Shown here in pieces: positions 3,799 through 30,965 of a stretch of DNA of 33,477 nucleotides (positions are counted from its first letter, which is position 1; every line of letters begins with the position of its first letter). The stretch comes from Deltaproteobacteria bacterium (lineage in GTDB: Bacteria > Desulfobacterota > DSM-4660 > Desulfatiglandales > HGW-15): contig JAFGFM010000135.1 of NCBI GenBank assembly GCA_016931115.1, positions 1 through 33,477 of the forward strand, read 5' to 3'. The notes under the pieces were generated by a model. It saw only the letters and a program-made list of their open reading frames with translations, did not search any database and had not been told where the DNA came from. The translations under genes were made by a program, and so were the position numbers.

Positions 3799-3809
3799 GA
3801 GTTAGATTA

Positions 3810-4304: not shown

Positions 4305-4320
4305 TAAAAAGGAGAAAGGC

Positions 4321-4677: not shown

Positions 4678-4736
4678 ATAATCCTGACCTGTAAATATTA
4701 AACATTACCAGTCAGTGATAAAAGGGTGGAGGTATT

Positions 4737-7277: not shown

Positions 7278-7293
7278 AGGAGGTCTATCAGTG

Positions 7294-8034
7294 ATGAAAA
7301 AGTATTTGGTAATAATCGCCCTTTCAATTTTTATATTTTTTCCTGTAAGTAATGCATCCGGTGAAGACACAAAGGATGAGGCAAGGGTCTATGCAGTTCA
7401 GAACCGTATTTTTCACAGGGATCACGAGATAAATTTTGATATCGGTTATATCGCAAACGAGAATTTTTTCCATCCATTTCCCATAGGGTTTGGTTACATA
7501 TTCAACCTGAACGAAAATTACGGATGGGAGGTTGCAAGGGCGCAGTTTATCCTGGCACCTGAAAATGATCTGAAATCCGATCTGGAATCACAATTCGGGG
7601 TAACCCCTTCTGAGTTTGCAAAACCTACCTTCATGATTCATTCCCATCTGGTGTTCAAACCATTCTACGGTAAAAATGCTGTGCTTAACAAAGGGGTGAT
7701 AAACCATGAAACATATCTTTTTGCAGGCGGCGGGGTTGTAAAATACGATTGGAACTACCCTGAGGGGAGCACCCAGAATGATGGTTCTACCGGTGAGATG
7801 GTTCCTTCTGCAAGCTTCGGGATAGGGAGTAAATACTTTATCAATGACAAGTTCTGCCTCAATTTTGAGATTCGCGACATTATGAACTTCTGGAGTGACG
7901 GCATGGAAAACAGGATCTATGTCGGAGTCGGTATTGGATACAGGTTTAACCTCAAACCCAGAAAGGTTGAGAAGGATGAGACCTTTGAGAAGTTGAACCG
8001 GTACCTGAAAAAGGAAAAAGATAATGACCGCTAG
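7294..8034 (+). CDS. Outer-membrane beta-barrel protein (OMP_myx_plus-like, GltA/GltB-like)
   Basis: A 246-residue protein with a signal peptide (KKYLVIIALSIFIFFPVSNA, residues 2-21). The mature part alternates hydrophobic and polar residues in strand-like fashion, with VYAVQNRIFHRDHEINFDIG, ETYLFAGGGVVKYDW and a terminal strand IYVGVGIGYRFNL. This fits the outer-membrane barrel family found mostly in myxobacteria (TIGR04565 type), which includes proteins of the Glt complex. AAAGGAGG at 7276-7283 serves either GTG 7291 or ATG 7294; ATG is preferred. The charged C-terminal tail (KVEKDETFEKLNRYLKKEKD) after the last strand is odd for a simple barrel. The gene overlaps the next one by 11 nt. Likely an outer-membrane anchor for the machine. 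Confidence 0.78.
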   Translation: MKKYLVIIALSIFIFFPVSNASGEDTKDEARVYAVQNRIFHRDHEINFDIGYIANENFFHPFPIGFGYIFNLNENYGWEVARAQFILAPENDLKSDLESQFGVTPSEFAKPTFMIHSHLVFKPFYGKNAVLNKGVINHETYLFAGGGVVKYDWNYPEGSTQNDGSTGEMVPSASFGIGSKYFINDKFCLNFEIRDIMNFWSDGMENRIYVGVGIGYRFNLKPRKVEKDETFEKLNRYLKKEKDNDR

Positions 8035-9577
8035 AATCAAACTCTATATCTGCCTTTTAGGGGCAGCCATTTTTTGCGGCAATGCATATGCCCTCTCACC
8101 GGTCGAGATGATAAAGTCGCCTGTTAATTACGTAAAGGAATTAATGGGATTTAAAAAGGAGTTAAAAGAGAGAGCTGTTGAGATGCCTGAAGTCATTGAG
8201 GGCAGTGAGGATGAAAAACTCAACCGGTTTAAAAGGGGGTATGCCCAGTTTACAGAAGAAAACTACCAGGAAGCGGCCATCGAACTGTACCGTTTTATGT
8301 CTATGTCTAATCATGATGAGGAAGATTATGAATGGGCACAGTTCTTCTTTGGCATCAGTATCAATAAACTTAAGATGTCACATGCTGCAAATGATGTGCT
8401 GGGTGACCTCGTTGCAAGAAAACCCAATCCCAAGATAGTTACATACTGTCTGGGACTGCTTGAAAATAATGTAAGCACACTTCCATACGATGAGGAGTTT
8501 ATTGTAAGCCAGGTGGTTGGTGACCAGGATTATGGATTTGTTGAAGGTGATACAGCAGACTTTATCAACTATCTGCAGGGGGTCTATGACTGGGAACACA
8601 GGTTTAAGGAATGGGGCAATGATCATTTTAAAAAGATAAATCCCTCATCCAGGTATTATTTCAATTACATCTATAAACTGGCCCTTTTCTCTGTCTATGA
8701 TGGTGATATTGACGGGGCGATCGGTTATCTGAAGGAGATATTGGGAAGCAGCCAGCCATCAAAGGAGCTGAAGGATGAGAGCAGAAAGACACTCGCAAGG
8801 CTTCTTTATGAAAAGGGTGATTATGACACGGCAGATATGATCTATATGGAGATAGAAAAAAACATAATAGAGCAGGCCGATAATCTCCTTGAAAGGGCAT
8901 GGGTTCATTACCGTCTGGGAAACAGCGAAAAGGCAATGGGGCTCCTATATTCCTTCCAGGCCCCGAGCTTTGAAAATGCCTTCAGGCCGGAGTATTTTAT
9001 ACTCAAATCATTTATCTTTAAGGATGTCTGCAACTACAAAAATGCCCTCTCTGTGGTCAATGAATTCAGAGAGCGTTATGGGGATGCTATAACCAAGCTT
9101 TATGAAAGAAGCCTGCCAGAGGAAAATACCCCCCTCATAATGGTACTTCTTAACAAACCCGGTGTAACTAAAACATTTAATTTCCTTGATCTCCTGGAAA
9201 AGGAAAAGGGGCAGTGTGAGGCTATTCCGGATGAGCTGTTAAAAAATTACCTTATCAAGATATATGAACTTCAGATTGAAGAGAGCAGTGAATCCTTAAG
9301 AAAGCAGATATATAACGGTTATGAAATGATTGCAGATGATCTGTTGAGATATGAAGAGGATGCCTACCTGATGGAATACGAGATAGGTCTGGATATGTAT
9401 CAGCGGGTCTATGAAAGTCAGTTTGCTGAAGAGAAGACGATAAAAGAGAAGGTGGCAAAAGGGCTGGCAATGTATGAGTTTCAGGGTGAATTCTGGAATG
9501 ACGAACTGGAGACATATGAGGTCACGCTCCAGAATAAATGCGAAAACATGGAAGAATGGGACATATTTTTCAAATGA
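8024..9577 (+). CDS. Exported TPR protein (GltC-like)
   Basis: A 517-residue protein with a signal peptide (IKLYICLLGAAIFCGNAYA, ending near residue 23). It has helical repeats of TPR type: RFKRGYAQFTEENYQEAAIE, ALFSVYDGDIDGAIGYLKEI, ARLLYEKGDYDTADMIYMEI and ERAWVHYRLGNSEKAMGLLY. It begins within the end of the barrel gene (ATG 8024, stop TAG 8032-8034) and ends in an ATGA overlap with the next gene, so the three are probably made together. In Myxococcus a periplasmic TPR protein (GltC) is encoded beside the barrels GltA and GltB, and the arrangement here is similar. It probably acts as a periplasmic adaptor between the inner-membrane motor and the outer-membrane barrel. The GltC comparison rests on layout and remembered pattern, not alignment. 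Confidence 0.75.
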   Translation: MTARIKLYICLLGAAIFCGNAYALSPVEMIKSPVNYVKELMGFKKELKERAVEMPEVIEGSEDEKLNRFKRGYAQFTEENYQEAAIELYRFMSMSNHDEEDYEWAQFFFGISINKLKMSHAANDVLGDLVARKPNPKIVTYCLGLLENNVSTLPYDEEFIVSQVVGDQDYGFVEGDTADFINYLQGVYDWEHRFKEWGNDHFKKINPSSRYYFNYIYKLALFSVYDGDIDGAIGYLKEILGSSQPSKELKDESRKTLARLLYEKGDYDTADMIYMEIEKNIIEQADNLLERAWVHYRLGNSEKAMGLLYSFQAPSFENAFRPEYFILKSFIFKDVCNYKNALSVVNEFRERYGDAITKLYERSLPEENTPLIMVLLNKPGVTKTFNFLDLLEKEKGQCEAIPDELLKNYLIKIYELQIEESSESLRKQIYNGYEMIADDLLRYEEDAYLMEYEIGLDMYQRVYESQFAEEKTIKEKVAKGLAMYEFQGEFWNDELETYEVTLQNKCENMEEWDIFFK

Positions 9578-14456: not shown

Positions 14457-15269
14457 ATGAAAAATAAATTTAAGACAAGAATAATCCTAATAGTGGGTTG
14501 CGCCATTCTTTTATTGTGGCCAGTAAACAATGCATTTGCAGGATGGGCAAATGATATCTTTGATGAGTGCCCTGATGACCAGTGCGGCGCACCACCATCA
14601 GGCGGGATAGGTGGAGGTGGCGCAGGAGGCGGGCCCCTTGTAATTTCTTATAACTTTGGCCCAAGATTTTACCCGATGGAGGATTTTGATTATGACGGTG
14701 TATTTGACCTTCTTGACAACTGCCCCTTTACCCCAAATGAGCAGACTGAAAATCAGGATGGGGACGATTTCGGTGATGCATGTGACAACTGCCCTGATAT
14801 AGCAAATAATGATCAGCTCGATACTGATGGTGATGAGGAGGGAGACGCATGCGACACGGATGATGACGATGATGGTATTCTGGATATCCATGACACGTGC
14901 CCCCTGCACTATGACCCGAGCGGTGCTGATCATGATGGTGATGGCATAGGGGACATATGCGATGATGATGATGACAATGACGGCGTCCCTGATACGGTAG
15001 ATAACTGCCGGCTCGTTTCAAACCCCAGCCAGGAAAATGATGATTATTACTCGGTAGGGGATGATGAAGGCAATGCCTGTGACAATGATCTGGATAATGA
15101 CGGTTTCCTTGAGCCTGACGAAGACCTTTGCCCGAAGTGCAGGTCAGTTTCAAATAGTGACATGGATAATGATGATATCGGGGATGCGTGTGATAACTGC
15201 CCAAATATATTTAATCCTGATCAGACCGATACTGATAATGATGGAATAGGAGATGCATGTGATGACTAG
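14457..15269 (+). CDS. Secreted thrombospondin type-3 repeat protein
   Basis: A 270-residue protein with a strong GAGGAGGTAAGG ribosome site upstream. The signal peptide (IILIVGCAILLLWPVNNAFA) ends near residue 28, followed by a Gly-rich stretch (GGIGGGGAGGG). From residue about 78 to the end it consists of calcium-binding thrombospondin type-3 repeats: DFDYDGVFD, NQDGDDFGDACDNCP, DTDGDEEGDACD, DHDGDGIGDICDDDDDNDG, DNDGFLEPDEDLCPKC, DTDNDGIGDACDD. Cys residues recur in DNCP and DACD positions, as in disulfide-linked TSP3 arrays. It stops directly after a repeat with no C-terminal domain, and its last codons overlap the start of the VWA lipoprotein gene. TSP3 arrays bind Ca2+ and act as stiff spacers in adhesins. 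No anchor is visible, so it may be periplasmic or secreted. Confidence 0.83.
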   Translation: MKNKFKTRIILIVGCAILLLWPVNNAFAGWANDIFDECPDDQCGAPPSGGIGGGGAGGGPLVISYNFGPRFYPMEDFDYDGVFDLLDNCPFTPNEQTENQDGDDFGDACDNCPDIANNDQLDTDGDEEGDACDTDDDDDGILDIHDTCPLHYDPSGADHDGDGIGDICDDDDDNDGVPDTVDNCRLVSNPSQENDDYYSVGDDEGNACDNDLDNDGFLEPDEDLCPKCRSVSNSDMDNDDIGDACDNCPNIFNPDQTDTDNDGIGDACDD

Positions 15270-16905
15270 ACTTCTGTCTATTTTATTAACCCTTGCAATG
15301 TTTGCGGTACTCTCTGCATGTGATGCACCTCCTCTTGAAAGATTCAATGTAAGGGATGAGGTAACCATAAATGCAACTTTCCTGACAGAAGACCCTGAAA
15401 ATATCATCTTCCCGGTCAAGGTGCTCTTTGCAATAGACTGCTCAGGAAGCATGGGTGGTACAGTGCCCGGTATGGAAGGGGGGTCTGATCCTGAAGGCTT
15501 GAGGCTGGATGCTGTAAGGGAGTTTGTAAATACCTATAACACGGATGAATACCCAAATGTATCCTTTGAAGTTATGCTCTGGAACCTCTCTGTTATGGAT
15601 ACTACAGGTAATGACAGCGGCCAGCCAGGGTTTACCAGGTCTGCCACTGAGATAAGCAGGGTACTGGATGGGGCAAACAACCAGTCCATGACAGATTACC
15701 TGGGAACTATAGACGCTATAAGGGTGGATATAGAAAATGATATTCATCGTACAGCGCAGCAGGAGGGTGGGGCTGATACACTTGTAAGGACAAAATATAT
15801 TGTCCTGTTCTTCAGTGACGGCCTGCCAAATGTACCTGATGGGATTGGCAGTTCCATGACCCAGGCCGATGCGGATATATTTGAAAGGGTTGAGGAGCTC
15901 AACGATATGGTTAATGAAAATGGTGTTGGTGGTTTCAGTTTCCATACCTTTCTGCTTTCAGCCCTTTTCGGACCCGGCGATGAGTCGGATATGCAGCGGG
16001 CAATTAACACTTTGCAGCAGATGGCCCACAGGGCAGGCGGTATATTTATAGAGTTTGAGAATGCCGAGGCAATTGATTTTGTAAATGTTACAGACTTAAG
16101 ATTAACGGCTGAATATACAATAGAATTTGCCCTTGCATTTAATCAGAATGTAAAGCCCGGTACAGACCTTGTGCATACGGATAGTGATGGTGACTGGCTC
16201 AATGATGCAGAGGAGCTGATCTATGACACAGACCCTCAAAACCCTGATACAGATTATGATGGAATGGGGGATTATTTTGAGATCAAGGTCAGCTCGCCTC
16301 AGCAGGAGCTTGACCCTCTTGAAAATGACAGCCCGTGTCAGGCCTCTGAAGATGGAACATATCCTGACACAGACTTTGACGGGCTGACTGACTGCGAGGA
16401 ATACATCAAGGGTACAAACAGGTATATGACAGATACTGACCAGGATGGAATACCTGACGGTGTTGAGTTTTACATGGGGACAAATCCACTGATAGATGAA
16501 ATGATTAAGGACAGTGATTTTGACGGTAATCCGGACTGGCTTGAGGTGCGTGCTCATACAAATGTACTGGCGAGTGATCCTCAGGTTCAAAGGGATAACA
16601 GCTACCAGTACAACCTGATTGACCAGGGGTATCCGAGGGATGCAGAGACAGGGTCTCTTCTACCCATGCGCCAGTTTAACCTCACAGTATCCAATATTGA
16701 TATCATGAATACCCTTGGATACACGGTTGATGGCGTCACCTATCTTAATCCGGGTGATAATATTATACGTCTGTATATTGCCCAGAGGCCGGCTGATCTG
16801 CCAAACAGCCCGCTGATATACCGGATGGCCGAGATACAGATTAACTATAACGAGGCAGTGCGGGATATTTATTTGACCCCTAACGATTTTGAACTACTTG
16901 ACTGA
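15262..16905 (+). CDS. VWA-domain lipoprotein with calcium-binding repeats (CglB-like adhesin candidate)
   Basis: A 547-residue lipoprotein; ATG 15262 is 9 nt after AGGAG, while ATG 15253 abuts it. The lipobox LSAC gives Cys20. A von Willebrand A domain (about 50-290) begins VLFAIDCSGSMGG, giving the metal-binding MIDAS motif DxSxS (Asp59, Ser61, Ser63), with FFSDGLPN near residue 185 supplying a further Asp. After it come five EF-hand-like or TSP3-like loops: DSDGDWLNDAEE, DTDYDGMGDYFE, DTDFDGLTDCEE, DTDQDGIPDGVE, DSDFDGNPDWLE. Asp21 follows the lipidated Cys; in E. coli that would favour inner-membrane retention, but the rule may not hold here. In Myxococcus the VWA lipoprotein CglB is the gliding adhesin, so this is the natural candidate for the surface end of the machine; that equivalence is inference. 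Confidence 0.85.
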   Translation: MTRLLSILLTLAMFAVLSACDAPPLERFNVRDEVTINATFLTEDPENIIFPVKVLFAIDCSGSMGGTVPGMEGGSDPEGLRLDAVREFVNTYNTDEYPNVSFEVMLWNLSVMDTTGNDSGQPGFTRSATEISRVLDGANNQSMTDYLGTIDAIRVDIENDIHRTAQQEGGADTLVRTKYIVLFFSDGLPNVPDGIGSSMTQADADIFERVEELNDMVNENGVGGFSFHTFLLSALFGPGDESDMQRAINTLQQMAHRAGGIFIEFENAEAIDFVNVTDLRLTAEYTIEFALAFNQNVKPGTDLVHTDSDGDWLNDAEELIYDTDPQNPDTDYDGMGDYFEIKVSSPQQELDPLENDSPCQASEDGTYPDTDFDGLTDCEEYIKGTNRYMTDTDQDGIPDGVEFYMGTNPLIDEMIKDSDFDGNPDWLEVRAHTNVLASDPQVQRDNSYQYNLIDQGYPRDAETGSLLPMRQFNLTVSNIDIMNTLGYTVDGVTYLNPGDNIIRLYIAQRPADLPNSPLIYRMAEIQINYNEAVRDIYLTPNDFELLD

Positions 16906-16930
16906 TATACTTTTTAATGGAGGTGCTGTC

Positions 16931-19300
16931 ATGAAAAAAATATTTTATATAGCAATAATGGGTTTAATCTTAAGCGCCTGTAATTCAGATGGGCCGGACA
17001 ATAATGCTGATAATCAGGCCAATGGTGAATTGATGCTTAACCGGTCTGTTGCAGGCTCAATATCCGCTGAGGGAGAGGTAGACCTTTACCATATAAGTGT
17101 AAATGATGCCAATACCATTTTAACTGTCTCAGTCGAGGGGGATACTGTTCATCCTGATGTGGATCTCCTGGTAACAGCCTATCAGAATGAGGTCAATGAG
17201 GACAACAGGTTGATGGCAGATCATGCCCCTGAAGATTCATACCTGCCTGCTGATATTGATATGAATATATATATCGACCAGCCAAAGGAGATATATATTG
17301 CTGTTAGGGACCTCATGGATGATGAGGCTGATCCTGAACAGAGGTACCATCTTACTGTTTCTACTGCCAGCATTGAGGAAGAAAATAATGATTTTTCAAG
17401 CGCCACCCAGCTTACGGTTGATAACCAGGGCAGCATAGTAACAGAAAAAATAGATTATGTGGGAGATAAGGATTGCTTTGCATTCAATATAACCCAGGAA
17501 GGGATTTACAGTATTACAATAGATTACGAACCCTTTGTGGGCGGAACCCAGGTAAGGCCAGCAGCAAGGCTTTTTGGGCCTGACGGTGCGATGATTGACT
17601 CTGTAAGCAACATAACTGGTGACGGGTTTAAGTTCCTGGCACATCTTACCGCATCGGCTAATCCTTATCATGTTGTTATAGAGGACACGGGTAATGATGA
17701 TTCTGATCAGTCATCCTCATATGGGATCAGTATTGTCTCTTTTGACTCAGATGAAAACTATCAAAATGATTCAAAGGAAGAGGCTCTCCAGATGACACTA
17801 TCAGGAGGCAGTACCTATTCAGCTGATGCTGCCCTTGATTATGCATCATCATCTGAAGACCCGGATCATTTTGGGGACAGGGACTGGTATGTTATACCTG
17901 TTGACAGTGTTAATGTCACAGGCATAAAGGTCATAAATTTTACCATGACTGATCAGGATAATATCAGGAACCTTGACTACAGGATAAGCCTGATGGAGGA
18001 ATCAGGGGCTGTACTATTTGCCCATGATTATAATGGAGGCAGTTCCCCTTACGTATGCCAGATGAAGGCAGGTGCAGGCGACCATTTTCTGCTTGTTGAG
18101 GCAGCAGGAACAGACAGGGTGCAGGGAAGTGCAGCTTATACAGTTGATATCGAGGTGATTGGAGTAACAGACCCTGCTGAAGCAGGTAATGGCAATAATA
18201 CAGAGAGTAATGCAACTGTTATCACATCAGGTGCAGCGCTGGAAGGTAAAATTGCATTCAGGAGCGATGTCGACTGGTACAGGATACAGGTGCCTACAGA
18301 GAGCCCCAAGATCCTGGAGTTATCCCTTGATAGCGCTGAATCAATGGTGGAATATGATGTGCAGATCAGGCTGAATAACGATACCCTGAAAAGACAGTAT
18401 GACACAAACGGTTCAGATGCCGCTACAGAGCTATCGACCAGTATTTATATAGATGCCAATTCTCAGACAACAACAGATTATTACATTAAGGTTGCTGATT
18501 ACCAGGATGATGATGGTGACTCTATCCCCTATAACCTTTTAGTTAATGTTGTGCCGGTACCGGCTGATGCAAATGTTTCAACCGCACCCGGGGATGAGTA
18601 TCGCTATTACTTCAGTGAGGTGGAGGAAAGGGCAATGGATGCCAGCAGGTCAACTGACCTTGAGCTTGAGATCTGGACAACAGAACAGCCTGAGTTCAAG
18701 GCGGATACGAGCTTATTTAACTTCAGGGCAGCGGATCTTGCAGCCCTGCATATTACAAAGACAAATAACCCTGACGGCACTGTTACAATCACCTTTCCGT
18801 GGATAGCAGGTTTTGTTGATTACCAGGGTGACAGGGATTTTTACAAGCTTGATCTTAAAACCCTTGATCCGGCCATACCTGATACACAGTGGTACTATGA
18901 TGTAGAGATAAGGCTTGCGACCAGGGCCGCGACAGGAGTGGAATATAACTGGAAGTTCTATCGTGACCATAACGGGAACGGTATTATCATGGATAATCCC
19001 GGTGCAGATGACGGTTACAAGGCCAATAACGGTGATGTTACTCTTACCAGCGAGGCTATAGATATTACTACTCCTTCAGGTACAGAGACATTCTATGTCG
19101 GTGACAGGTGGACGACCGAAAATCCGAGAGATTACAGTGTCTATATAGGCATGAGCGATTTTGACTTCAGAAATCTGCCAACATCAAACCCGGATGACCC
19201 GGTGGCCAATCCTGATCCTGACAATGACTGGGGATATGATGCCCCATATTATTTTAAAGTTGTATTAACCTATCATCCGGGGGTCTCTTACCCGCAGTGA
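16931..19300 (+). CDS. PPC-domain lipoprotein
   Basis: A 789-residue protein starting at ATG 16931 after GGAGGTG; an upstream ATG at 16889 overlaps the previous gene but has no ribosome site. LILSAC gives a lipobox with Cys17. It contains several pre-peptidase C-terminal (PPC) type beta domains: near residues 25-130 (SISAEGEVDLYHISV, then YIAVRD), 145-255 (KIDYVGDKDCFAFNITQEG), and 415-540 (KIAFRSDVDWYRIQV). The pattern DxDxF/Y.I followed by a Tyr- or Phe-rich strand is typical. A C-terminal block has more Asp/Asn-rich loops. No protease or other catalytic domain is attached. PPC domains usually bind surfaces or carbohydrates in secreted proteins. Last gene of the operon, directly before a strong terminator. 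Confidence 0.8.
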   Translation: MKKIFYIAIMGLILSACNSDGPDNNADNQANGELMLNRSVAGSISAEGEVDLYHISVNDANTILTVSVEGDTVHPDVDLLVTAYQNEVNEDNRLMADHAPEDSYLPADIDMNIYIDQPKEIYIAVRDLMDDEADPEQRYHLTVSTASIEEENNDFSSATQLTVDNQGSIVTEKIDYVGDKDCFAFNITQEGIYSITIDYEPFVGGTQVRPAARLFGPDGAMIDSVSNITGDGFKFLAHLTASANPYHVVIEDTGNDDSDQSSSYGISIVSFDSDENYQNDSKEEALQMTLSGGSTYSADAALDYASSSEDPDHFGDRDWYVIPVDSVNVTGIKVINFTMTDQDNIRNLDYRISLMEESGAVLFAHDYNGGSSPYVCQMKAGAGDHFLLVEAAGTDRVQGSAAYTVDIEVIGVTDPAEAGNGNNTESNATVITSGAALEGKIAFRSDVDWYRIQVPTESPKILELSLDSAESMVEYDVQIRLNNDTLKRQYDTNGSDAATELSTSIYIDANSQTTTDYYIKVADYQDDDGDSIPYNLLVNVVPVPADANVSTAPGDEYRYYFSEVEERAMDASRSTDLELEIWTTEQPEFKADTSLFNFRAADLAALHITKTNNPDGTVTITFPWIAGFVDYQGDRDFYKLDLKTLDPAIPDTQWYYDVEIRLATRAATGVEYNWKFYRDHNGNGIIMDNPGADDGYKANNGDVTLTSEAIDITTPSGTETFYVGDRWTTENPRDYSVYIGMSDFDFRNLPTSNPDDPVANPDPDNDWGYDAPYYFKVVLTYHPGVSYPQ

Positions 19301-19370: not shown

Positions 19371-19434
19371 AGCTTTGAGCTTTGAGCTTTGAGCTTTGAG
19401 CCTTGAGCTTTCACCTTTCACCTTTCACCTTTTC
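19371..19434. repeat. Tandem heptamer repeat (TTTGAGC, then TTTCACC)
   Basis: About five imperfect copies of a TTTGAGC-type heptamer run directly into about three copies of TTTCACC. Similar blocks occur at 27705-27746 and 30793-30846, always between genes and in the same orientation. They are simple-sequence repeats rather than coding or CRISPR sequence; function unknown. Confidence 0.8.
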
Positions 19435-19488: not shown

Positions 19489-19516
19489 TTGACACGCTTA
19501 CAAATGTAAGTATACT
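19489..19516 (+). promoter_or_regulatory. Sigma-70-type promoter of the TonB operon
   Basis: TTGACA (19489-19494), a 16-bp spacer and TATACT (19511-19516). The hexamers match consensus at 6/6 and 5/6. It is about 93 bp upstream of the DUF3450 gene start at 19610 and downstream of the previous operon's terminator. Three repressor-like boxes overlap it. Confidence 0.8.
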
Positions 19517-19545
19517 TACAATCGTAATCATGATTACATCAGTAA
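19498..19545. promoter_or_regulatory. Triple BlaI-type operator, TTAC-N4-GTAA with 18-bp period
   Basis: TTACAAATGTAA (19498-19509), TTACAATCGTAA (19516-19527) and TTACATCAGTAA (19534-19545) start exactly 18 bp apart. Box 1 contains TACA-N2-TGTA, the form of BlaI/MecI/CopY operators, and lies between the -35 and -10. Box 2 begins at the last base of the -10 and covers the expected start point, and box 3 is just downstream. TGTAAGTATACTTACA (19505-19520) between boxes 1 and 2 is also a perfect palindrome. A closely related box lies before the BlaI-type gene at 25353. Confidence 0.7.
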
Positions 19546-19609
19546 GTAAATGGCTAAGTTTAGAAATGATCAAAACTATTGGGTTGAATAACAGGCAGGG
19601 AGGTTAAAA

Positions 19610-20380
19610 ATGGTCAAGCATATTTTGGTATTTACAATAGTATTTATCTTTCAGGCAAATCCAGCGGTATTTGCCCGGGCTGATCTGGAGAAGACAGAAA
19701 CAGAGATGAAAAATGCCATTAAAATAGAGGGGGATGCGCAAAGAGAGGTTGATACCTGGGCATCAGAAAAGGATGACCTTGTCTCTGAAATCAGGACAAT
19801 CCAGACCACAAACACCTGGCTTGATTACCAGATTCAAAAATACAACCTCTATATCAACAGGTTAAATCAGGAGATTGCCCTGCTGAATACAAAGAAACTC
19901 GAGGCCAGAAAGGTCAGAGAAGGGCTTGAGCCCTACCTGGAAAAGGAGGTTTTGATACGCCTTGAGAGATTTATTGCAACAGACCTGCCATTCTATGAAG
20001 CAGTAAGGGCGCAGGGCATAAATGATATAAGAAATACCATGAGCGATCCTCACAGCACCCTTGCTGAGAAGCTTCGCCAGGTTTTGAGTGTTCTTGAGAT
20101 AGAGGCCAACTATGGCAAGGATGTAGGTACTTCAGACGTAACTTTGACCCTGGACGGGAAGGATACAGAGGTGACCCTTCTTCGCTTTGGCAGGGTGGCC
20201 ATGTTTTATACATCTATGGATGGAAAAAGGGTTGGCATGTGGAATGATCATGAGAGGAAATGGGAGCCCCTTCCAAAAAATCACGAGCGGGATATCAGCA
20301 GGGCCATGCAGATGGCAAGACGAGAGAGGACTATTGGACTGATTAATATTCCTGCAGGAGCAATAAATCATGGAAACTAA
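19610..20380 (+). CDS. DUF3450 family periplasmic protein, TonB-system associated
   Basis: A 256-residue protein with a GGGAGG ribosome site and signal peptide (ILVFTIVFIFQANPAVFA, ending near residue 22). A long coiled coil covers residues about 25-105 (DLEKTETEMKNAIKIEGDAQ and RLNQEIALLNTKKLEAR). A conserved globular part follows: DLPFYEAVRAQ, STLAEKLRQVLSVLEIEANY, LLRFGRVAMFYTSMDGKRVG. This is the DUF3450 pattern, usually encoded first in TonB2-type operons of Vibrio, Shewanella and deltaproteobacteria. Its biochemical function is not established. The stop overlaps the next gene by 11 nt, so it is probably made with the long ExbB. The upstream promoter carries BlaI-type boxes. Confidence 0.85.
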   Translation: MVKHILVFTIVFIFQANPAVFARADLEKTETEMKNAIKIEGDAQREVDTWASEKDDLVSEIRTIQTTNTWLDYQIQKYNLYINRLNQEIALLNTKKLEARKVREGLEPYLEKEVLIRLERFIATDLPFYEAVRAQGINDIRNTMSDPHSTLAEKLRQVLSVLEIEANYGKDVGTSDVTLTLDGKDTEVTLLRFGRVAMFYTSMDGKRVGMWNDHERKWEPLPKNHERDISRAMQMARRERTIGLINIPAGAINHGN

Positions 20381-21800
20381 AAAAATAAAATATCTGATCA
20401 TTTCATGTTTCTTCATGGTGTTGATTTCATTAACAGCAAATGCCCTGGCTCAGGAGGCGTGGCAGAAGGTGGAGCATGAGATCAATCAGGAAAAAATCAG
20501 GGCAGAACAGGATGCAAAAAAAACAGGGCAGCTTGTATCAATGGATCGTACTGATATGCAGAAAGAGGCGGCAAAACTCAGGGAAGAAAATAAAAACCTG
20601 GATAAGCAACATAAAACCCTGATCAAACAGTACGAAGATCTTGTTGGTCTTCAGGCAAAATTGGAGGCGGATCTTGCAGAGGAACAGCAGGATGTAGAGG
20701 AGGTAGAGGGTACGCTTCGCTCAGGTGCAAAGGAGGCCGAGAGTATGATCCGTGCAAATCCGATCACATCAGAAATCCCTGGTAGAGTGGGAATTATTGA
20801 GAGGTTGCGCGATCCTGACAGGGTCCCTGGCCTGGAAGGGATCAGGGATCTGATAGAGGTCTACTTTGGGGAACTGGAGGCCTCACGTAAAATAACAAAG
20901 AGGGAGGGTGAATTTGTTGCACCGGACGGGACAAATTCAAAAGGTGAAATCATACGTGCAGGGATCTTTATGACCTATTTTAAGAAACCGGATGGGGAAA
21001 CAGGTTTTCTTCAGCCGGAAACGGATGGAATGCGCCTCATTGGTGTTCCAGGTAATATACCCGGGTCCGTCCTGAAGACCATCAGCGACTATTTTGAAGG
21101 TAAATCGAAAATCATCCCGATAGATCCGTCACGCGGGGGGGCATTCACCTCCTATACAAAGAAGTTAAAATTTGCTGACTATCTGGAGGATGGCGGCAGC
21201 ATTATGTACTTCATTGCCGCTGTTGGCATTCTGGCCCTGTTAATAATTATTGAACGATTTTTTGTCCTCTATAGAACCAGGGCAAATACAGACAAGATCA
21301 CAGAACAGATTACAGGATTTGCAGAAAGCGGGGCATGGGAACAGGTCAATATTACCTGTAAAGAGAATAGCAGGGTGCCTACCTGCCGTATGCTGCAAGG
21401 CGCCCTGGGACATATTGGTGCAAGCCAGGATGTTCTTGAAAACACTTTGCAGGAAGGGATACTGCGGGAGACACCGCGTCTGGAGCGTCTTCTTCCAACA
21501 CTTGGTGTTCTGGCAACCATTGCACCTCTCCTTGGTCTCTTAGGTACGGTGACCGGCATGATAAACACCTTTAAGGTTATTACAGCACAGGGTACAGGGG
21601 ATGCAAATGCTATGGCAGGCGGTATTTCAGAGGCCCTCTTAACCACAGAGTTTGGTCTTATGGTGGCCATTCCGCTTATACTTACTCATCATATACTTTC
21701 ACGCCGTGTTGATAAGATTGTGGGTGATATGGAGGAAAAGGGTACTGCCTTTGCGGTAACCATGACCATGAGGGGCACTGTTACTTCAAGCGAGGTATAA
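20370..21800 (+). CDS. MotA/TolQ/ExbB protein with N-terminal periplasmic coiled coil (TtpC-like)
   Basis: A 476-residue protein. A signal-like hydrophobic segment (residues about 8-26) is followed by a coiled coil (about 30-115, rich in Lys, Glu, Gln) and a periplasmic domain to about residue 270. An ExbB core comes next, with helices near 275-298 (MYFIAAVGILALLIIIERFF), 371-400 (LGVLATIAPLLGLLGTVTGM) and 417-442 (GISEALLTTEFGLMVAIPLI). Ordinary ExbB is about 200-245 residues; the extended form matches TtpC of Vibrio TonB2 systems, which is needed for energy transfer to certain TonB-dependent receptors. It lies between DUF3450 and a short ExbB, as in those operons. Family and location are well supported; which receptors it serves is unknown. 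Confidence 0.88.
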   Translation: METKKIKYLIISCFFMVLISLTANALAQEAWQKVEHEINQEKIRAEQDAKKTGQLVSMDRTDMQKEAAKLREENKNLDKQHKTLIKQYEDLVGLQAKLEADLAEEQQDVEEVEGTLRSGAKEAESMIRANPITSEIPGRVGIIERLRDPDRVPGLEGIRDLIEVYFGELEASRKITKREGEFVAPDGTNSKGEIIRAGIFMTYFKKPDGETGFLQPETDGMRLIGVPGNIPGSVLKTISDYFEGKSKIIPIDPSRGGAFTSYTKKLKFADYLEDGGSIMYFIAAVGILALLIIIERFFVLYRTRANTDKITEQITGFAESGAWEQVNITCKENSRVPTCRMLQGALGHIGASQDVLENTLQEGILRETPRLERLLPTLGVLATIAPLLGLLGTVTGMINTFKVITAQGTGDANAMAGGISEALLTTEFGLMVAIPLILTHHILSRRVDKIVGDMEEKGTAFAVTMTMRGTVTSSEV

Positions 21801-21801
21801 A

Positions 21802-22416
21802 ATGCTTATTGATCTATTGGAAAGGGCTATTGAGCACATTGAGACAGGCGGACTGGTAATGTATCCTCTTTTAGTAGTCTCTATTATAATGTTCTTTTTG
21901 GTGATGAAGAAATTCATTGAAATACGCGATTTTACCAGGGGTGACATGCCTGTCCTTGAGTGTCTGCAGTCGATTGGAAAGCCCGGCTTTATGGCAGCTA
22001 ACTGGCAGATGGAGATTATCAAAGGGTTTTTATCAAAACGGACATTTAACGATGACCTTGACAGGAGTATTCTTGAAGTCCTGAGATTGCGCCAGATAAG
22101 ATTTGTCATGGGTTCTAATAAATCCATCGGAATTCTGGCCAGCATAGCGCCGCTCCTGGGTCTATTAGGGACGGTGAGCGGTATGATCACAACATTTCTA
22201 GTGATCGCCAAATCAGGAACAGGAGACGCAAAGGCACTTGCATCAGGGATATCCGAGGCATTGATCACAACTCAAACCGGGCTTGTGGTTGCTGTTCCAG
22301 GGCTGTTTCTGGCAAATTTTCTTCGCAGACGCTCAAATACTATTGAGGACCGGATCCAGAGATTCTGTCTTGGATTGCACAGATCACATAGAGACATAGA
22401 TAGTGAAGAGGGCTAA
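21802..22416 (+). CDS. exbB: ExbB-family biopolymer transport protein
   Basis: A 204-residue inner-membrane channel subunit of ordinary ExbB length. A first helix lies at about 16-36 (GLVMYPLLVVSIIMFFLVMK), then the cytoplasmic loop, then LASIAPLLGLLGTVSGMITT and ISEALITTQTGLVVAVPGLF, which carry the family signature. It starts one base after the stop of the long ExbB gene. The two ExbB proteins in one operon are the hallmark of TonB2-type systems: this one should form the proton channel with the ExbD proteins that follow. A 54-bp gap follows before exbD, with no terminator. Confidence 0.9.
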   Translation: MLIDLLERAIEHIETGGLVMYPLLVVSIIMFFLVMKKFIEIRDFTRGDMPVLECLQSIGKPGFMAANWQMEIIKGFLSKRTFNDDLDRSILEVLRLRQIRFVMGSNKSIGILASIAPLLGLLGTVSGMITTFLVIAKSGTGDAKALASGISEALITTQTGLVVAVPGLFLANFLRRRSNTIEDRIQRFCLGLHRSHRDIDSEEG

Positions 22417-22470
22417 TACTTTAAATGGATGTTTTGATGAAACAACTTTATTAAAAATGGATGGGATATC

Positions 22471-22896
22471 ATGAAGAAAATAATAGAAGGCGGTCGTCGC
22501 CGAATTGAGTCAAAACTTGATATGGCTCCCCTCATAGACATGATCTTTATCCTGCTGATCTTCTTTCTGGTAACGACCAGTTTTTCCAGAGAATCCGGGG
22601 TGGAACTCAAAAAGCCAAAGTCCGCACCGGCAGAACCCAATGCCCAGAAGAAGACAAATGTGACAGTGGAAATCGGTCACGATAACAGGGTGTTTATCGA
22701 TGAGAGGGTATATGATGTGCGCACTGTGCGGGCCTATATGGAACAGTTTCTGATTGATGTGCCAAAGGGTACTGTGGTGATCGCAACAGATAAAGACAGC
22801 TCTATTGGCCGCGTTATTGAGGTGATGGATCAGTGTAAACTTGCCGGTGTAATATATGTCAGTGTGGCTGAAAGAATCGAGACAAAAGGGACATAG
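22471..22896 (+). CDS. exbD: ExbD-family biopolymer transport protein, copy 1
   Basis: A 141-residue single-pass inner-membrane protein. The helix LDMAPLIDMIFILLIFFLVT contains Asp23, the functional proton-carrying residue of ExbD and TolR. The periplasmic domain (residues about 60-141) reads VTVEIGHDNRVFIDERVYDV and GTVVIATDKDSSIGRVIEVM, the standard ExbD fold. Ten bases separate it from a second exbD that is near-identical through the helix, so the pair looks like a tandem duplication. The ribosome site is weak. Confidence 0.9.
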   Translation: MKKIIEGGRRRIESKLDMAPLIDMIFILLIFFLVTTSFSRESGVELKKPKSAPAEPNAQKKTNVTVEIGHDNRVFIDERVYDVRTVRAYMEQFLIDVPKGTVVIATDKDSSIGRVIEVMDQCKLAGVIYVSVAERIETKGT

Positions 22897-22906
22897 GTGA
22901 AATGCT

Positions 22907-23317
22907 ATGAGGAAGATAATCAATAAAAATAGAGGCTCTGCATCAGCAGAGCTCGATATGGCTCCCCTGATCGATATGATTTTCATATTGCTGATTTTTT
23001 TTCTGGTATCAGGCAATTTTGTCAAGCAATCAGGGGTAATAGTTCAAAAATCTGTTGCCGAAACAGCTGAGGAAAAAAGTAAAACCAACATTATTCTGGG
23101 TATCACCCGTGATAATACAATATTCATAGAGGGCCATGAGGTTGATATCCGTGATGTACAGGGCCATATGGAACGTTTTATCCTGGATAATCCTGATGGC
23201 TATGTAGTGATATCACCGGATAAGGATAGCCGATCCGAAATAACGCTCAAGGTGCAGGAATACTGTCATGCTGCGGGTATAAAGCACCTGAGCATATCAG
23301 CAGAAAAACCTGAATAG
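22907..23317 (+). CDS. exbD: ExbD-family biopolymer transport protein, copy 2
   Basis: A 136-residue protein paralogous to the preceding one. ELDMAPLIDMIFILLIFFLV repeats the same transmembrane sequence, including Asp23, while the periplasmic parts have diverged (NIILGITRDNTIFIEGHEVD, YVVISPDKDSRSEITLKVQE). Unlike the TolR pair at 3289-4304, both copies keep the Asp. ExbD works as a dimer in the channel pore, so the pair could form a heterodimer. An AGAGGTGG site at its end serves the tonB gene. Confidence 0.9.
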   Translation: MRKIINKNRGSASAELDMAPLIDMIFILLIFFLVSGNFVKQSGVIVQKSVAETAEEKSKTNIILGITRDNTIFIEGHEVDIRDVQGHMERFILDNPDGYVVISPDKDSRSEITLKVQEYCHAAGIKHLSISAEKPE

Positions 23318-23328
23318 AGGTGGTTAAA

Positions 23329-24003
23329 ATGAATGTACCTGTATACACTGTCTGGAGGCCAAAAAATATTTGCATAATGTCTGTTTTCACCCTTGTGATT
23401 AATGCCCTGCTGTTTATGGGGTTACCTGCACTTACACGTATAGCAGACAGAGATCGTGATACCAAAACAGTCAGCCAGTACATGCTCGCAGCCCGTGATA
23501 CGCCCAGGCCCCATGAGGAACAGAAGGAAAAGAGATTAAGGCAGAAGGAGCTGAAACAGATCCCTGCCACAAAAATAACCAATGTTTCACAACAAAAGCA
23601 GGATGCCCCCAAGTTTGCCTTTGATACGAGCACTGGCGGCGCAGATGGGCTTGCAATCGAGATGATGGCACCGGAAGGGCTGAATCTAAGTGCGAATGAT
23701 TTAACCTTTACTCTAAAAGATGTGGATTCGCCACCTAGGGTTACCAGGGCGCCACCAGTGAATTATCCATTTAAGGCCATGAGCAGGGGGCTTGAAGGAC
23801 GGGTGTTTGTGCGTATCAGGGTGGGCACAGATGGAAAGGCGACAAATATCAGGGCAGAAAGGGCAGAACCTCCTGAGGTGCTTGACGACTTCAGAGAAGA
23901 GGCTGAGAAGGCTGTATCCAGGTATCGTTTTGAGCCGGCCAGACTCGGAGGTGAGGCTGTTCCTGTATGGGCTATGCAGCCAATATCATTTACGCTGAAC
24001 TAA
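23329..24003 (+). CDS. tonB: TonB energy-transducing protein
   Basis: A 224-residue protein. ATG 23329 sits 5 nt after GAGGTGG; GTG 23320 would leave no room for that site. A single N-terminal helix (IMSVFTLVINALLFMGLPAL, residues about 15-34) anchors it in the inner membrane. A charged linker of Lys/Glu/Arg rather than the classic Pro-rich type follows. The TonB C-terminal domain covers residues about 140-224, with PVNYPFKAMSRGLEGRVFVR, VGTDGKATNIRAE, SRYRFEPARLGGEAV and the final strand QPISFTLN. It links ExbB/ExbD proton flow to outer-membrane TonB-dependent receptors. No receptor gene is in the window. Confidence 0.92.
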   Translation: MNVPVYTVWRPKNICIMSVFTLVINALLFMGLPALTRIADRDRDTKTVSQYMLAARDTPRPHEEQKEKRLRQKELKQIPATKITNVSQQKQDAPKFAFDTSTGGADGLAIEMMAPEGLNLSANDLTFTLKDVDSPPRVTRAPPVNYPFKAMSRGLEGRVFVRIRVGTDGKATNIRAERAEPPEVLDDFREEAEKAVSRYRFEPARLGGEAVPVWAMQPISFTLN

Positions 24004-24007
24004 TTAG

Positions 24008-25273
24008 ATGAGCAACCGGAATAAAATGGGGATCAATATGCAAAAGCTTAAACATGTATTTATATATGGTCTGTTGCTTGTACTTCCTTTTGCAATAATT
24101 TCTAGTAGTATTGCGCAGGAGAGGGAAGGAAAAAAAGATGATAAATTAACGACCGAGGCAAGGCTCACAATTTTCAAGGCCCAGACAGCCATGAGCGAAG
24201 AGAAACCGGAAGAGGCTTTAACAATACTTGATAAATATCTTGCAACACAACCGGATGCTGTTCCTCCTGCTGTTTATGAGTTATACGCATATATATGGCT
24301 TGAAAAGAAAGATAATGAAAAGGCCCTTAAATATTTCAGGATCATGTATGAGGCTGAGCCGGATAATGCCAAAGTTTTGAAAAATCTGGCCTCCCTGACA
24401 TTTCAGGTAGAGCGCTATGCAGAGGCTGCTGTTCTTTTTGAAAAATTGTATGAGGTTGAAGATGCAACTACCCCGGGTGGATCACTCCCCTATGCTGTTA
24501 ATGCCTATATGATGGCGGAAGATCTGGTTAATTCCAAACGTCTCCTTAAAAAGCTTGTGGGGTTACCGGGCGAAATTGATGCCAAATGGTATGAATGGTT
24601 GATAAACATCTGCCTTGAACAGGATGAAATGAATGAGGCTGAAGAGTATATTATCGATCTGCTGCGAATAAACCCGGTTCAGGCAAGGTACTGGAAACAT
24701 CTGGCACAGATAAGAATTAAACGCGAAGAGTGGCAGGCAGCAACGAGCGACCTGGAGATTTCATATCGAGTGGAAGCGCCTCATAATCTGAGTGAATGGA
24801 TAATACTTGGAGATCTCTATAGAACAACTGTGAATGCACCGCTTATGGGCGCACGCTGTTATATGGAGGCATATAAAGAAAACAGCGCTGAAAAAGACTA
24901 TATATCTATCTCCCGCACATATGAGATGGCTTACCGATATGATGATGCTGTAAGGATCCTGAATGAAGGTATCAGAAAAAACCCGGCGAGTACGGCCCTT
25001 CTTTTGGAAAAGGGGAGGGTCTTATATGATGCCAGACGCTACACTGAAGCCATTGCCGCACTGGAAGAGTGTCTGAAGATAGATCCACAGTCAGGAGATG
25101 CATTATTCCAGATCGGGCTCAGTGCCTGGACCCTCAGGGAATGGGACAAGGCCAGGACAGCCTTTGTGCAGGCAAAACGGTTGTCGGAGAAATACAGCGC
25201 ACAGTGTGATTCTGTGATTGACCTCCTGGATGATCTGAACGAAGAGAAGGCTGAGGTGATGGCCACTAAATAG
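24008..25273 (+). CDS. TPR protein of the TonB2-type operon
   Basis: Up to 421 residues; ATG 24008 is 4 nt after tonB, but ATG 24026 or 24038 may be used, the last giving the cleanest signal peptide (HVFIYGLLLVLPFAIISSSI). It has serial TPR units: AYIWLEKKDNEKALKYFRIM, NLASLTFQVERYAEAAVLFE, DLLRINPVQARYWKHLAQIR, YEMAYRYDDAVRILNEGIRK and GRVLYDARRYTEAIAALEEC. A TPR gene regularly closes operons of the DUF3450-ExbB-ExbB-ExbD-TonB type. It is exported and probably supports complex assembly in the periplasm. No terminator separates it from the repressor gene 80 bp downstream, so some read-through is possible. Confidence 0.85.
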   Translation: MSNRNKMGINMQKLKHVFIYGLLLVLPFAIISSSIAQEREGKKDDKLTTEARLTIFKAQTAMSEEKPEEALTILDKYLATQPDAVPPAVYELYAYIWLEKKDNEKALKYFRIMYEAEPDNAKVLKNLASLTFQVERYAEAAVLFEKLYEVEDATTPGGSLPYAVNAYMMAEDLVNSKRLLKKLVGLPGEIDAKWYEWLINICLEQDEMNEAEEYIIDLLRINPVQARYWKHLAQIRIKREEWQAATSDLEISYRVEAPHNLSEWIILGDLYRTTVNAPLMGARCYMEAYKENSAEKDYISISRTYEMAYRYDDAVRILNEGIRKNPASTALLLEKGRVLYDARRYTEAIAALEECLKIDPQSGDALFQIGLSAWTLREWDKARTAFVQAKRLSEKYSAQCDSVIDLLDDLNEEKAEVMATK

Positions 25274-25283
25274 AAATTACTCA

Positions 25284-25313
25284 TTGACATAGGTCCTTAA
25301 TTGTATGTATTAT
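25284..25313 (+). promoter_or_regulatory. Promoter of the blaI-like/M56 gene pair
   Basis: TTGACA (25284-25289), an 18-bp spacer and TATTAT (25308-25313). It lies 40 bp upstream of the chosen start at 25353 and just after the TPR gene. The BlaI-type box at 25318-25329 covers the expected transcription start. Confidence 0.65.
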
Positions 25314-25317
25314 ATTC

Positions 25318-25329
25318 CTACAATTGTAA
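25318..25329. promoter_or_regulatory. BlaI-type operator at the repressor's own promoter
   Basis: CTACAATTGTAA contains the perfect palindrome TACAATTGTA, the TACA-N2-TGTA form used by BlaI, MecI and CopY. It begins 5 bp after the -10 hexamer, the usual place for self-repression. It differs by one base (C for T) from the TTAC-N4-GTAA boxes at 19498-19545. Confidence 0.7.
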
Positions 25330-25352: not shown

Positions 25353-25721
25353 ATGAGTAAGGTGCCAAAGATCTCAGAATCCGAGTGGCTGGTTATGAAG
25401 GCGATTTGGGATGAAAACCCTATCAGCTCCAACAGGGTTGTAGAGATTTTATCAGACTCAACCCAATGGAATCCAAAAACAATAAAGACACTATTAACCC
25501 GGTTGGTAAAAAAAGGGGCTGTCGGATTTGAGACTGAGGGAAGGAGTTATCTCTATTATCCTTTAATAGAGGAGCAGATTCTTGTAAAGGAAGAGAGCAA
25601 ATCCTTTTTAAAGCGGGTTTTTCGGGGTGCCTTAAAACCCATGATTGCCACAATGGTTGAGAGTGAAGATTTATCAGTGGAAGAAATAGAGGAATTAAAG
25701 CGTCTCCTTTCTAAAAAATAG
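25353..25721 (+). CDS. BlaI/MecI/CopY-family transcriptional repressor
   Basis: A 122-residue winged-helix repressor. ATG 25353 follows GGAG at 25342-25345; the upstream ATG at 25305 would place the operator inside the gene and has no ribosome site. ISESEWLVMKAIWDENPISS and WNPKTIKTLLTRLVKKGAVG, then GRSYLYYPLI, form the DNA-binding domain (residues about 5-75). The rest (FLKRVFRGALKPMIATMVES, SVEEIEELKRLL) is the dimerisation helix region. In staphylococcal BlaI the sensor protease cuts at an Asn-Phe pair in that region; here the equivalent looks like Thr-Met, so cleavage, if any, would use another sequence. It sits 9 bp before the M56 protease gene, the usual BlaI-BlaR1 pairing, and likely represses itself and the TonB operon. 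Confidence 0.93.
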   Translation: MSKVPKISESEWLVMKAIWDENPISSNRVVEILSDSTQWNPKTIKTLLTRLVKKGAVGFETEGRSYLYYPLIEEQILVKEESKSFLKRVFRGALKPMIATMVESEDLSVEEIEELKRLLSKK

Positions 25722-25730: not shown

Positions 25731-27698
25731 ATGGCGCCTTTATTGTCCGGGTTGTCAGCCTTTTTCTCCTGGTTGATGGATTACACAATAGATATCAGCA
25801 TCCTGATTTGCCTCATATTTTTAATCAGATTAATTACATCAAAAAAACTGCCTGCCTGGTGGCATTACAACCTCTGGATCATACTCCTTTTGCGGATGGT
25901 TATACCTTTAAAGTTTAACAACCCTTTTAATATCCCGAGCGTTGTCCCCATTTCAATAGATGATAGACTGTTTGAATCAATATTGATTGAGGATAATTTC
26001 ATAATTACCAAAATTTCATCCGGGCTATCTTCAAACCAGGAGGGATTTAATATACAGGTTAATGATGTAATGCTGCTTATATGGATAACCGGGACTATTT
26101 TTTTTGGGATATATATCCTGGTTAAGAATATCAAGTTCAGGAACATCCTCAAAAAAGAACCGCTAATGACAGAAAAAAGGGTACTTTGCCTGTTTGAAGA
26201 ATGTAAGCAGAGGATGAAAACAAAGACCCTGCTGCAAATTACTGTTACAAACAAAATAAAAACCCCTGCGCTTTACGGGTATATTCACCCAAGGCTCCTG
26301 TTGCCTGCGCGTGTTGCTGAAAAACTAAGCCATGCCGAATTAACATACATTTTTATGCATGAGCTGGGTCATTTAAAACGTCACGATATCGGCGTAGCCT
26401 GGATTTTTACATTTCTGCATATTTTGCAATGGTTCAATCCTCTTGTATGGCTTGCCTTCTATCAGATGAGGATTGACCAGGAATCGGCCTGTGATTCAGC
26501 CGTATTATCCAGAATAAACAATAATCAGACCATAGATTATGCCAACACTATTATCAGTTTTCTTGAAAGCTTCTGTAAAAGCCGGAAACTGCCGGCCCTG
26601 GTGGGTATCCTTGAGAGTCAGACCCAGATTAAAAAAAGGATCACCATGATTATCAGTTACAGAAGAGGGTCAAAATGGATGATGTCTTTATCAACTGCAT
26701 CATTAGTATTTATAGGTTTCATCCTTTTTACCATTACCGGAGTGCAGAACAGGGATAATATCATTCAGGATAAACTTATTGAAGAGCCTGTAAATGCTGT
26801 GGTTGAACCCGCTAATGAGAGTCTGTTAACCGAAATAACAGAAGTGAAAATCCTGGCAGATAACAAAAATATTTCTGTTACAGCTCAGGATCAGTTACTT
26901 AAATATGAGGCAGTGCAGGAGGAAATAAGCAGGGCGATTCAAACGCCCCTGGCTGAGATTCAGATGGACAATATTAAAGATGAGATTGATTCAGCAAACC
27001 CGGCAAATGGAACTCAAAAGAGTGATCACGAAGATAAGATAGCAAATATCAGGCCTGACACGGATATACAAGAGGTCTTGAGTACCACTCAGATTGATAA
27101 TACAAAAAATGAGGAGATGATTCAGTCATCTGCCATCGTATTAAAAGAATCGAAGGATGCATATGATACCTATCCTGAAAATACAAACATTCAGGAAGAC
27201 AGTGCTTCAGCCCTGTATGAAAACAGGGAGAATTCACAAACGGCTCAGCTCACTGAAAATGGGCGCAATGATAGTGCAAAATATCTGGGTTTGGCCAGTG
27301 TGGTTTATCTCATCCCTGAAAAACTGGATCTCCTTGAAGAAACCCCTGCCATTTCTGAAAGCAGATCCGAAGGTATTAAAATATTCAATTTAAAAGAGGT
27401 TGATGAGCAGCCAAAGATAGTCAGTTATTATCGTCCGAGATACCCTTTTGAAGCCAAAGAAAGAGGAATTGAAGGCCGGGTCTTATTAAGATTTACAGTG
27501 GATAAGGCTGGAAATGTAATTGACCCACAGGTCGTCAGTGCTGAACCAAAAGGTATTTTTGAACAGGCAGCACTGGATAGCGTAACTAAATACAGATTAA
27601 AACCGGCTGTTAAGGATGGCAAGAGTGTGAATACTATTGTTAAGTTACCGATAAATTTTACCATGAATGAAAATTTTCTCAGGTTTGCACAAAGGTAA
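25731..27698 (+). CDS. BlaR1-like M56 membrane metalloprotease fused to a TonB C-terminal domain
   Basis: A 655-residue inner-membrane protein with AGGAGG upstream. Membrane helices lie near residues 16-34, 40-62 and 108-128. The zinc protease motif FMHELGHLKRHD has HELGH at 210-214, with RIDQESACDSAVL downstream supplying the third ligand region, and a fourth helix lies near 318-340. A periplasmic linker of about 220 residues (Asn/Glu/Asp-rich, low complexity) leads to a TonB C-terminal domain at about 564-650: YYRPRYPFEAKERGIEGRVL, then FTVDKAGNVIDPQVVSAEPK and KLPINFTMN. In BlaR1/MecR1 the same position holds a penicillin-binding sensor. Here a TonB domain implies sensing of, or force transfer to, an outer-membrane receptor, with the protease relaying to the BlaI-type repressor. 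M56-TonB fusions are known elsewhere; the regulatory model is inference. Confidence 0.9.
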   Translation: MAPLLSGLSAFFSWLMDYTIDISILICLIFLIRLITSKKLPAWWHYNLWIILLLRMVIPLKFNNPFNIPSVVPISIDDRLFESILIEDNFIITKISSGLSSNQEGFNIQVNDVMLLIWITGTIFFGIYILVKNIKFRNILKKEPLMTEKRVLCLFEECKQRMKTKTLLQITVTNKIKTPALYGYIHPRLLLPARVAEKLSHAELTYIFMHELGHLKRHDIGVAWIFTFLHILQWFNPLVWLAFYQMRIDQESACDSAVLSRINNNQTIDYANTIISFLESFCKSRKLPALVGILESQTQIKKRITMIISYRRGSKWMMSLSTASLVFIGFILFTITGVQNRDNIIQDKLIEEPVNAVVEPANESLLTEITEVKILADNKNISVTAQDQLLKYEAVQEEISRAIQTPLAEIQMDNIKDEIDSANPANGTQKSDHEDKIANIRPDTDIQEVLSTTQIDNTKNEEMIQSSAIVLKESKDAYDTYPENTNIQEDSASALYENRENSQTAQLTENGRNDSAKYLGLASVVYLIPEKLDLLEETPAISESRSEGIKIFNLKEVDEQPKIVSYYRPRYPFEAKERGIEGRVLLRFTVDKAGNVIDPQVVSAEPKGIFEQAALDSVTKYRLKPAVKDGKSVNTIVKLPINFTMNENFLRFAQR

Positions 27699-27704: not shown

Positions 27705-27746
27705 TCAGCCTTGAGCCTTGAGCCTTGAGCTTTGAGCTTTGAGCCT
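27705..27746. repeat. Tandem heptamer repeat (GAGCCTT/GAGCTTT)
   Basis: About five copies of GAGCCTT or GAGCTTT in tandem, starting 7 bp after the M56 gene stop. The block ends exactly where the homology of the truncated AlbA_2-family gene begins. It is the same repeat family as at 19371 and 30793. Confidence 0.8.
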
Positions 27747-30792: not shown

Positions 30793-30846
30793 ACTTTGAG
30801 TCTTGATCTTTCCCCTTTCAGCTTTGAGCTTTTACCTTTGAGCTTC
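30793..30846. repeat. Degenerate heptamer repeat block
   Basis: CTTTGAG, CTTGATC, TTTCAGC, TTTGAGC and TACCTTTGAGC units form a degenerate version of the repeats at 19371 and 27705, in the same orientation. It marks the junction between the toxin-antitoxin segment and the helicase locus. Confidence 0.6.
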
Positions 30847-30965
30847 TATTTTCCTGCCTTTCCTAACAGCCTCCAGCCTAAAATGCTTCAGCCTGTCTTT
30901 CTCATTGATAATTGCTCTCTTTTCTGCTAATACAAACCAGTCAAAAAAATAAGCAATCCCAATTA

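Follow-up and report, generated by a model that had tools for sequence, protein, structure and literature searches.

The closest described relatives of the locus reported here are the BlaI/BlaR1 and MecI/MecR1 systems of Staphylococcus and Bacillus licheniformis, in which a MecI-type winged-helix repressor is autoregulated and encoded next to an M56 membrane protease, TACA-type dyads lie over the promoter elements and a second regulated promoter is found nearby. The sensor of BlaR1 is a relative of the beta-lactamases, that is, of the type of protein that BlaR1 controls. The copper repressors CopY/CopR are related to BlaI; the operator of CopY has been refined experimentally to RNYKACANNYGTMRNY, and in the same work TACANNTGTA was found to be necessary, though not sufficient (PMC7253601). 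BlaI proteins also act on other targets: that of Mycobacterium tuberculosis acts on the ATP synthase operon (PMC12565901), and that of Clostridium thermocellum governs small regulons, with paired dyads at each target (PMC8457756). As would hold for the locus below, these two BlaI proteins repress an operon that lacks a beta-lactamase; unlike it, neither is described, in the passages considered, as having a TonB target or a sensor with a TonB tail (PMC12565901, PMC8457756).

Here we compare with these systems a stretch of 33,477 nucleotides from a deltaproteobacterial genome (GCA_016931115.1, contig JAFGFM010000135.1), referred to as the window; the promoters, boxes and genes described for its TonB operon and blaI-M56 pair are on the forward strand. 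It holds the autoregulated type of repressor, the adjacent M56 protease, the dyads over promoter elements and a second promoter nearby, but it has no beta-lactamase or penicillin-binding protein as a target, a TonB_C domain replaces the penicillin-binding sensor, and the target promoter carries three boxes at 18-bp steps. The parts are known and their combination is new: full-text searches, confined to an open-access library, turned up no BlaI-controlled TonB operon, as the earlier note had surmised, and no report of a function for M56-TonB fusions.

A seven-gene operon of the TonB2 type

The operon extends from 19610 to 25273. It begins with a TtpB-like periplasmic protein (DUF3450; 19610..20380; Pfam PF11932, 8.8e-64) and a TtpC-like protein in which a DUF3450-like N-terminal part is fused to a MotA/ExbB domain (20370..21800; PF01618, 2.8e-31; PF11932, 1.9e-11), followed by ExbB (21802..22416; PF01618, 3.2e-25), two copies of ExbD (22471..22896 and 22907..23317; PF02472, 8.1e-29 and 7.6e-24), a TonB with a GTG start (23320..24003; TonB_C, 6.4e-16) and a TPR protein (24008..25273; TPR families) at the TtpD position, which is held by ttpD2 in Vibrio. 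Judged by Pfam content, this is the gene order of the TtpB/TtpC-containing TonB2 and TonB3 systems of Vibrio vulnificus (TtpB-TtpC-ExbB-ExbD-TonB-TtpD; PMC6957404). The two have in common the DUF3450/TtpB-like gene in first place and the TPR protein at the TtpD position, and they differ in the second ExbD of the window. They also differ upstream: Vibrio tonB2 has a Fur box and is under iron control (PMC6957404), whereas the window operon has BlaI-type boxes instead. Fur was considered as a regulator of the operon but not favoured, the best Fur-like match near the TonB promoter, inside the box array, being a weak 13/19.

Elsewhere in the window, a second ExbB-ExbD-ExbD set stands ahead of TPR-like proteins and of a large FHA-domain protein whose middle part is rich in proline (2639-9577), a layout that we take to resemble energised envelope machinery of the Myxococcus Agl/Glt type. 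Between the two ExbB/ExbD systems (14457-19300) lie thrombospondin type 3 repeat genes, along with genes for a VWA-like protein and for a large secreted protein that matches no Pfam family. Short intergenic tandem repeats of the GAGCTTT/CACCTTT type (agctttgagctttgagc...) occur beside the TonB and M56 genes, at 19371-19430, 27708-27745 and 30795-30850.

Three probable operator boxes over the TonB promoter

The operon is preceded, at a distance of 65 bp, by a promoter at 19489..19516 (TTGACA at 19489-19494, a 16-bp spacer and TATACT at 19511-19516) that agrees with the sigma-70 consensus at 11 of 12 positions. Three exact TTAC-N4-GTAA boxes had been claimed to overlap this promoter, and they do: they begin at 19498, 19516 and 19534, in two steps of 18 bp, and sequence and sigma-70 scoring agree on the overlap with TTGACA-N16-TATACT. 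Box 1, TTACAAATGTAA (19498..19509), lies within the -35/-10 spacer, and its core is identical in a tonB promoter from another genus of the same family (G006) and in a desulfobacterial draft genome (L076). Box 2, TTACAATCGTAA (19516..19527), spans the -10 element to about the expected +1, and box 3, TTACATCAGTAA (19534..19545), the weakest of the three, lies in the early transcribed region. When compared with the 16-base CopY operator, boxes 1 and 2 match at all 16 positions, and box 3 and the box at the blaI promoter at 15 of 16. The description of the sites as BlaI-type, TACA-N2-TGTA, was borne out in part: the dyad is full in box 1 and in the blaI box, but its right half is degraded in boxes 2 and 3.

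Single TTACANNTGTAA sites number about 12 in the genome against an estimated 11 or so expected from base composition. Since they are no commoner than composition predicts, a lone box is uninformative without its promoter context, and it is the array and its promoter context that carry the weight; a genome-wide tally of single TTAC-N4-GTAA boxes, being at background, was discarded as evidence. The array itself is another matter. Among 40,000 Markov-simulated regions matched in composition to the 309-bp intergenic region, one box appeared in 236 and two boxes in 0, and a search of 395 genomes of the phylum found the exact double array in the window and in none of the rest. Chance is thus excluded for the three-box array. 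A non-functional origin of any kind, tandem duplication included, is very improbable: the 18-bp units are partly alike, as duplication would have it, and single boxes stand at genome background, yet the units share little beyond their half sites, the array sits over a promoter, and its boxes recur at BlaI and TonB promoters in other genomes.

The two inter-box spacers, GTATAC and TCATGA (within 19506-19537), are perfect palindromes. They form the centres of 14-bp perfect dyads, GTAAGTATACTTAC and GTAATCATGATTAC, that interleave with the boxes, a feature missing from the earlier note. A second regulator, or additional contacts, could account for these palindromes. A stronger proposal, in which the dyads are bound by a regulator from some other family and the TTAC-N4-GTAA boxes are their by-product, strikes us as improbable. 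It would account for the symmetry of the spacers, which exceeds that of boxes 2 and 3, and it could draw on the 13/19 Fur-like match, the best of the region, which falls there, and on the control of the Vibrio tonB2 operon by Fur (PMC6957404). However, the outer half sites would go unused under it, 13/19 makes a poor Fur box, and the spacer-centred dyads, when looked for in the G006 and L076 operators, were absent, whereas the TTACAAATGTAA core is kept in both.

The linked repressor and its TonB-tailed protease

Directly downstream of the operon, a second promoter (25284..25313; TTGACA-N18-TATTAT, 11/12) precedes a BlaI/MecI-type repressor gene and an M56 protease gene. The one-mismatch box that had been noted there is present: CTACAATTGTAA (25318..25329) lies just downstream of the -10 element, differs from TTAC at one base and contains a full TACA-N2-TGTA dyad, TACAATTGTA at 25319-25328, as in BlaI/MecI operators. 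Its partner is only degenerate, a weak half box, CTTAATTGTA (25296..25305), situated 23 bp upstream; the same 23-bp step is found in the blaI promoter of an unlinked paralog, C120.

The repressor (25353..25721; 122 aa) is full length, with Penicillinase_R (PF03965, 1.7e-35) covered from 1 to 114 of 115, a full-length match to MecI (1okr, 1.8e-27) and a MecI-like recognition-helix segment, WNPKTIKTLLTRL. Although its boxes fit the CopY operator (PMC7253601), the protein differs from CopY/CopR: it has no cysteine at all, and hence no C-terminal Cys-X-Cys metal motif, no copper genes are adjacent, and its score against the NCBIfam CopY model (103.7 bits) is below the cut-off of 121.95.

The M56 protein (25731..27698; PF05569, 5e-66; PF03544, 1.3e-21) has the HExxH motif and downstream Glu of BlaR1 and MecR1, as HELGH at residue 210 and ESACD at 251. 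Hydropathy places its last membrane helix at 320-338, and the part that follows, which ends in the TonB domain (residues 568-644), is presumably periplasmic. Where BlaR1 and MecR1 carry their C-terminal penicillin-binding sensor, this protein has TonB_C (1.3e-21), with the YP motif of the TonB domain intact (YPFEA at 571). The NCBIfam model blaR1_generic matches at 4.5e-65 and scores 220 bits, where the cut-off is 400, and covers residues 22-334 only, the N-terminal half. This M56-TonB protein would work like BlaR1 but is not filed as BlaR1.

In a tree of TonB domains, the tail of the window protease was nearest to the TonB of another system of the genome, C33 (58% identical), and the TonB of the window operon grouped with the M56 tail of G006 (support 87/92). 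The L076 TonB and a solo TonB of G006 are 74% identical over the domain. The pattern shows that M56 tails and working TonBs appear to be drawn from one pool and to have been swapped between sensor and operon in the course of evolution. Much as the BlaR1 sensor is akin to the type of protein that it regulates, the putative sensor in the window is akin to the TonB that it would control.

Recurrence of the operator in relatives

In G006, a blaI gene 64% identical to that of the window is followed by an M56-TonB_C gene and a solo tonB. The blaI promoter reads TTGACA-AGTGA-TTACAGATGTAA (in full TTGACAAGTGATTACAGATGTAATC) and the solo tonB promoter TTGACA-AAGGA-TTACAAATGTAA (in full TTGACAAAGGATTACAAATGTAATT), so that near-identical boxes occupy the -35/-10 spacers of blaI and tonB, with the TonB-tailed protease between them. 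Counting against the simplest reading, the box is here followed by a solo tonB alone and not by a whole operon. The whole operon has its ortholog in L076 (JAQYVR010000287.1), in the same order and with identities of 53% (DUF3450), 59% (TtpC), 74% (ExbB), 60 and 54% (ExbD), 39% (TonB) and 45% (TPR). The L076 operator matches the G006 tonB operator at 26 of 27 bases; its position 546 bp upstream of the operon counts against the favoured reading. No BlaI was found in the 2.9-Mb L076 draft, which is possibly incomplete, and this genome lends no support on that point.

Among 41 relatives, the pattern TTGACAN{2,7}TTACN4GTAA had six matches, two in coding sequence and four at BlaI or TonB promoters, namely those of the window TonB operon, C120 blaI, G006 blaI and G006 tonB. 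A tighter TTGACA-plus-box pattern recovered the same four from 395 genomes of the phylum, together with seven extra matches that had no BlaI, M56 or TonB-system neighbours. One of the seven, a TTGACA-box with TTACAAATGTAA in a distant relative (L219:1501-1525; G161 C132), lies upstream of a lexA-like gene, and the locus has no BlaI neighbour.

The expectation that the boxes would be conserved upstream of orthologous operons had a mixed outcome: L076 has such an operator, but no boxes were found upstream of the paralogous TtpC operons of the genus, C33, C240, G001 C116 and G015, a point against the simplest reading; box control therefore appears specific to the operon type of the window. The earlier note had also looked to TonB-dependent receptor genes; no such link was seen, with no boxes beside any of 24 plug-domain loci.

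BlaI paralogs and the choice of repressor

The genome has six Penicillinase_R genes, and TACA/CACA-type dyads are found at the own promoters of the BlaI paralogs C189, C120, G001 C106, G001 C26 and G006 C246; in this genome and its relatives such dyads mostly begin 4-5 bp after TTGACA. C189 and its G001 ortholog have paired TCACANNTGTGA-like sites, 21 bp apart and conserved between the species, and the G006 C246 promoter has ATTACAGATGTAAT. In a sister species, the G001 C26 BlaI promoter (L137:3987-4055) bears another multi-box array, of three TCTACANNNGTAGA-like boxes. A possible correspondence of recognition-helix Lys or Arg (IKT/IRT) with TTACA or TCACA boxes was weak, involved four proteins and was set aside.

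The proteases of further BlaI/M56 pairs of this genome (L058:2267-5118, L059:659-2673, L141:1970-4686, L057:5345-8137) end in four other modules: a penicillin-binding transpeptidase (C120), an SLT lytic transglycosylase (C218), TPR (C103), and TPR with two TonB_C stretches (C189). Because the pairs of one genome differ in this way, the comparison suggests that sensors are exchangeable on one signalling scheme.

The paralog C120 deserves weighing as the reader of the array, by itself or together with the 25353 repressor. Its promoter runs TTGACA-ATGT-TTACACGTGTAA and continues to a further box, TTACATTAGTAA; each of these boxes fits TTAC-N4-GTAA exactly (in context TTTACACGTGTAAA, then TTTACATTAGTAAA at a 23-bp step), and the only two TTGACA-plus-box sites of the genome are those at C120 blaI and at the TonB operon; the blaI box of the window, by comparison, is the less perfect match. 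As its M56 partner carries a penicillin-binding transpeptidase domain (3.2e-80), the TonB operon would then answer beta-lactams or cell-wall stress in trans. We nonetheless consider this arrangement unlikely. C120 is unlinked to the operon, its recognition-helix segment is divergent (WKSNTIKTFINRL), its boxes are flanked by T (TTTAC..GTAAA) whereas those of the array have C or A on the left, and the linked BlaI of G006 is paired with an M56-TonB, not with an M56-transpeptidase.

Discussion

Control of the seven-gene TonB operon by a BlaI-family repressor is, on these sequence comparisons, highly likely. Recurrence of the operator architecture at the BlaI-linked tonB of G006 and before the L076 ortholog gives good support to such control of a TonB system. 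The proposal that the repressor encoded at 25353 governs both its own pair and the TonB operon is supported in part, as far as the family is concerned; that this repressor is the main actor on the array we hold to be likely only. We favour a reading in which the boxes probably form a BlaI-type operator array, through which BlaI would repress an accessory TonB system and a BlaR1-like protease with a TonB-domain sensor would relieve that repression.

From the BlaI/BlaR1 family we infer dimer binding, repression and proteolytic relief. BlaI dimers, side by side, would cover the -35/-10 spacer, the -10 element and the start region and keep the TonB operon off, and the single box at blaI would provide autorepression of the blaI-M56 pair. 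The periplasmic TonB domain could be engaged by the TonB box of a receptor or when it is out of balance with the working TonB. On such engagement, M56 would act on BlaI and the accessory operon would be derepressed, as beta-lactam binding to BlaR1 derepresses beta-lactamase. By competing with the working TonB for receptors, the tail could measure demand. That the TonB tail serves as a sensor is possible, although we hold it slightly doubtful, and both the role and the ligand are proposed here without precedent. More tentative still is the idea that the M56-TonB protease tests whether receptors are served by TonB and destroys BlaI so that an extra TonB machine is made, in a feedback circuit whose sensor would be a decoy copy of the product, like the BlaR1 sensor in relation to a beta-lactamase.

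TonB systems are usually seen as iron- or substrate-controlled. If the favoured reading is true, the BlaR1 scheme would be a general design for sensing at the envelope, with exchangeable sensor domains; for the signal detected by M56-TonB fusions, there is now a directly testable proposal.
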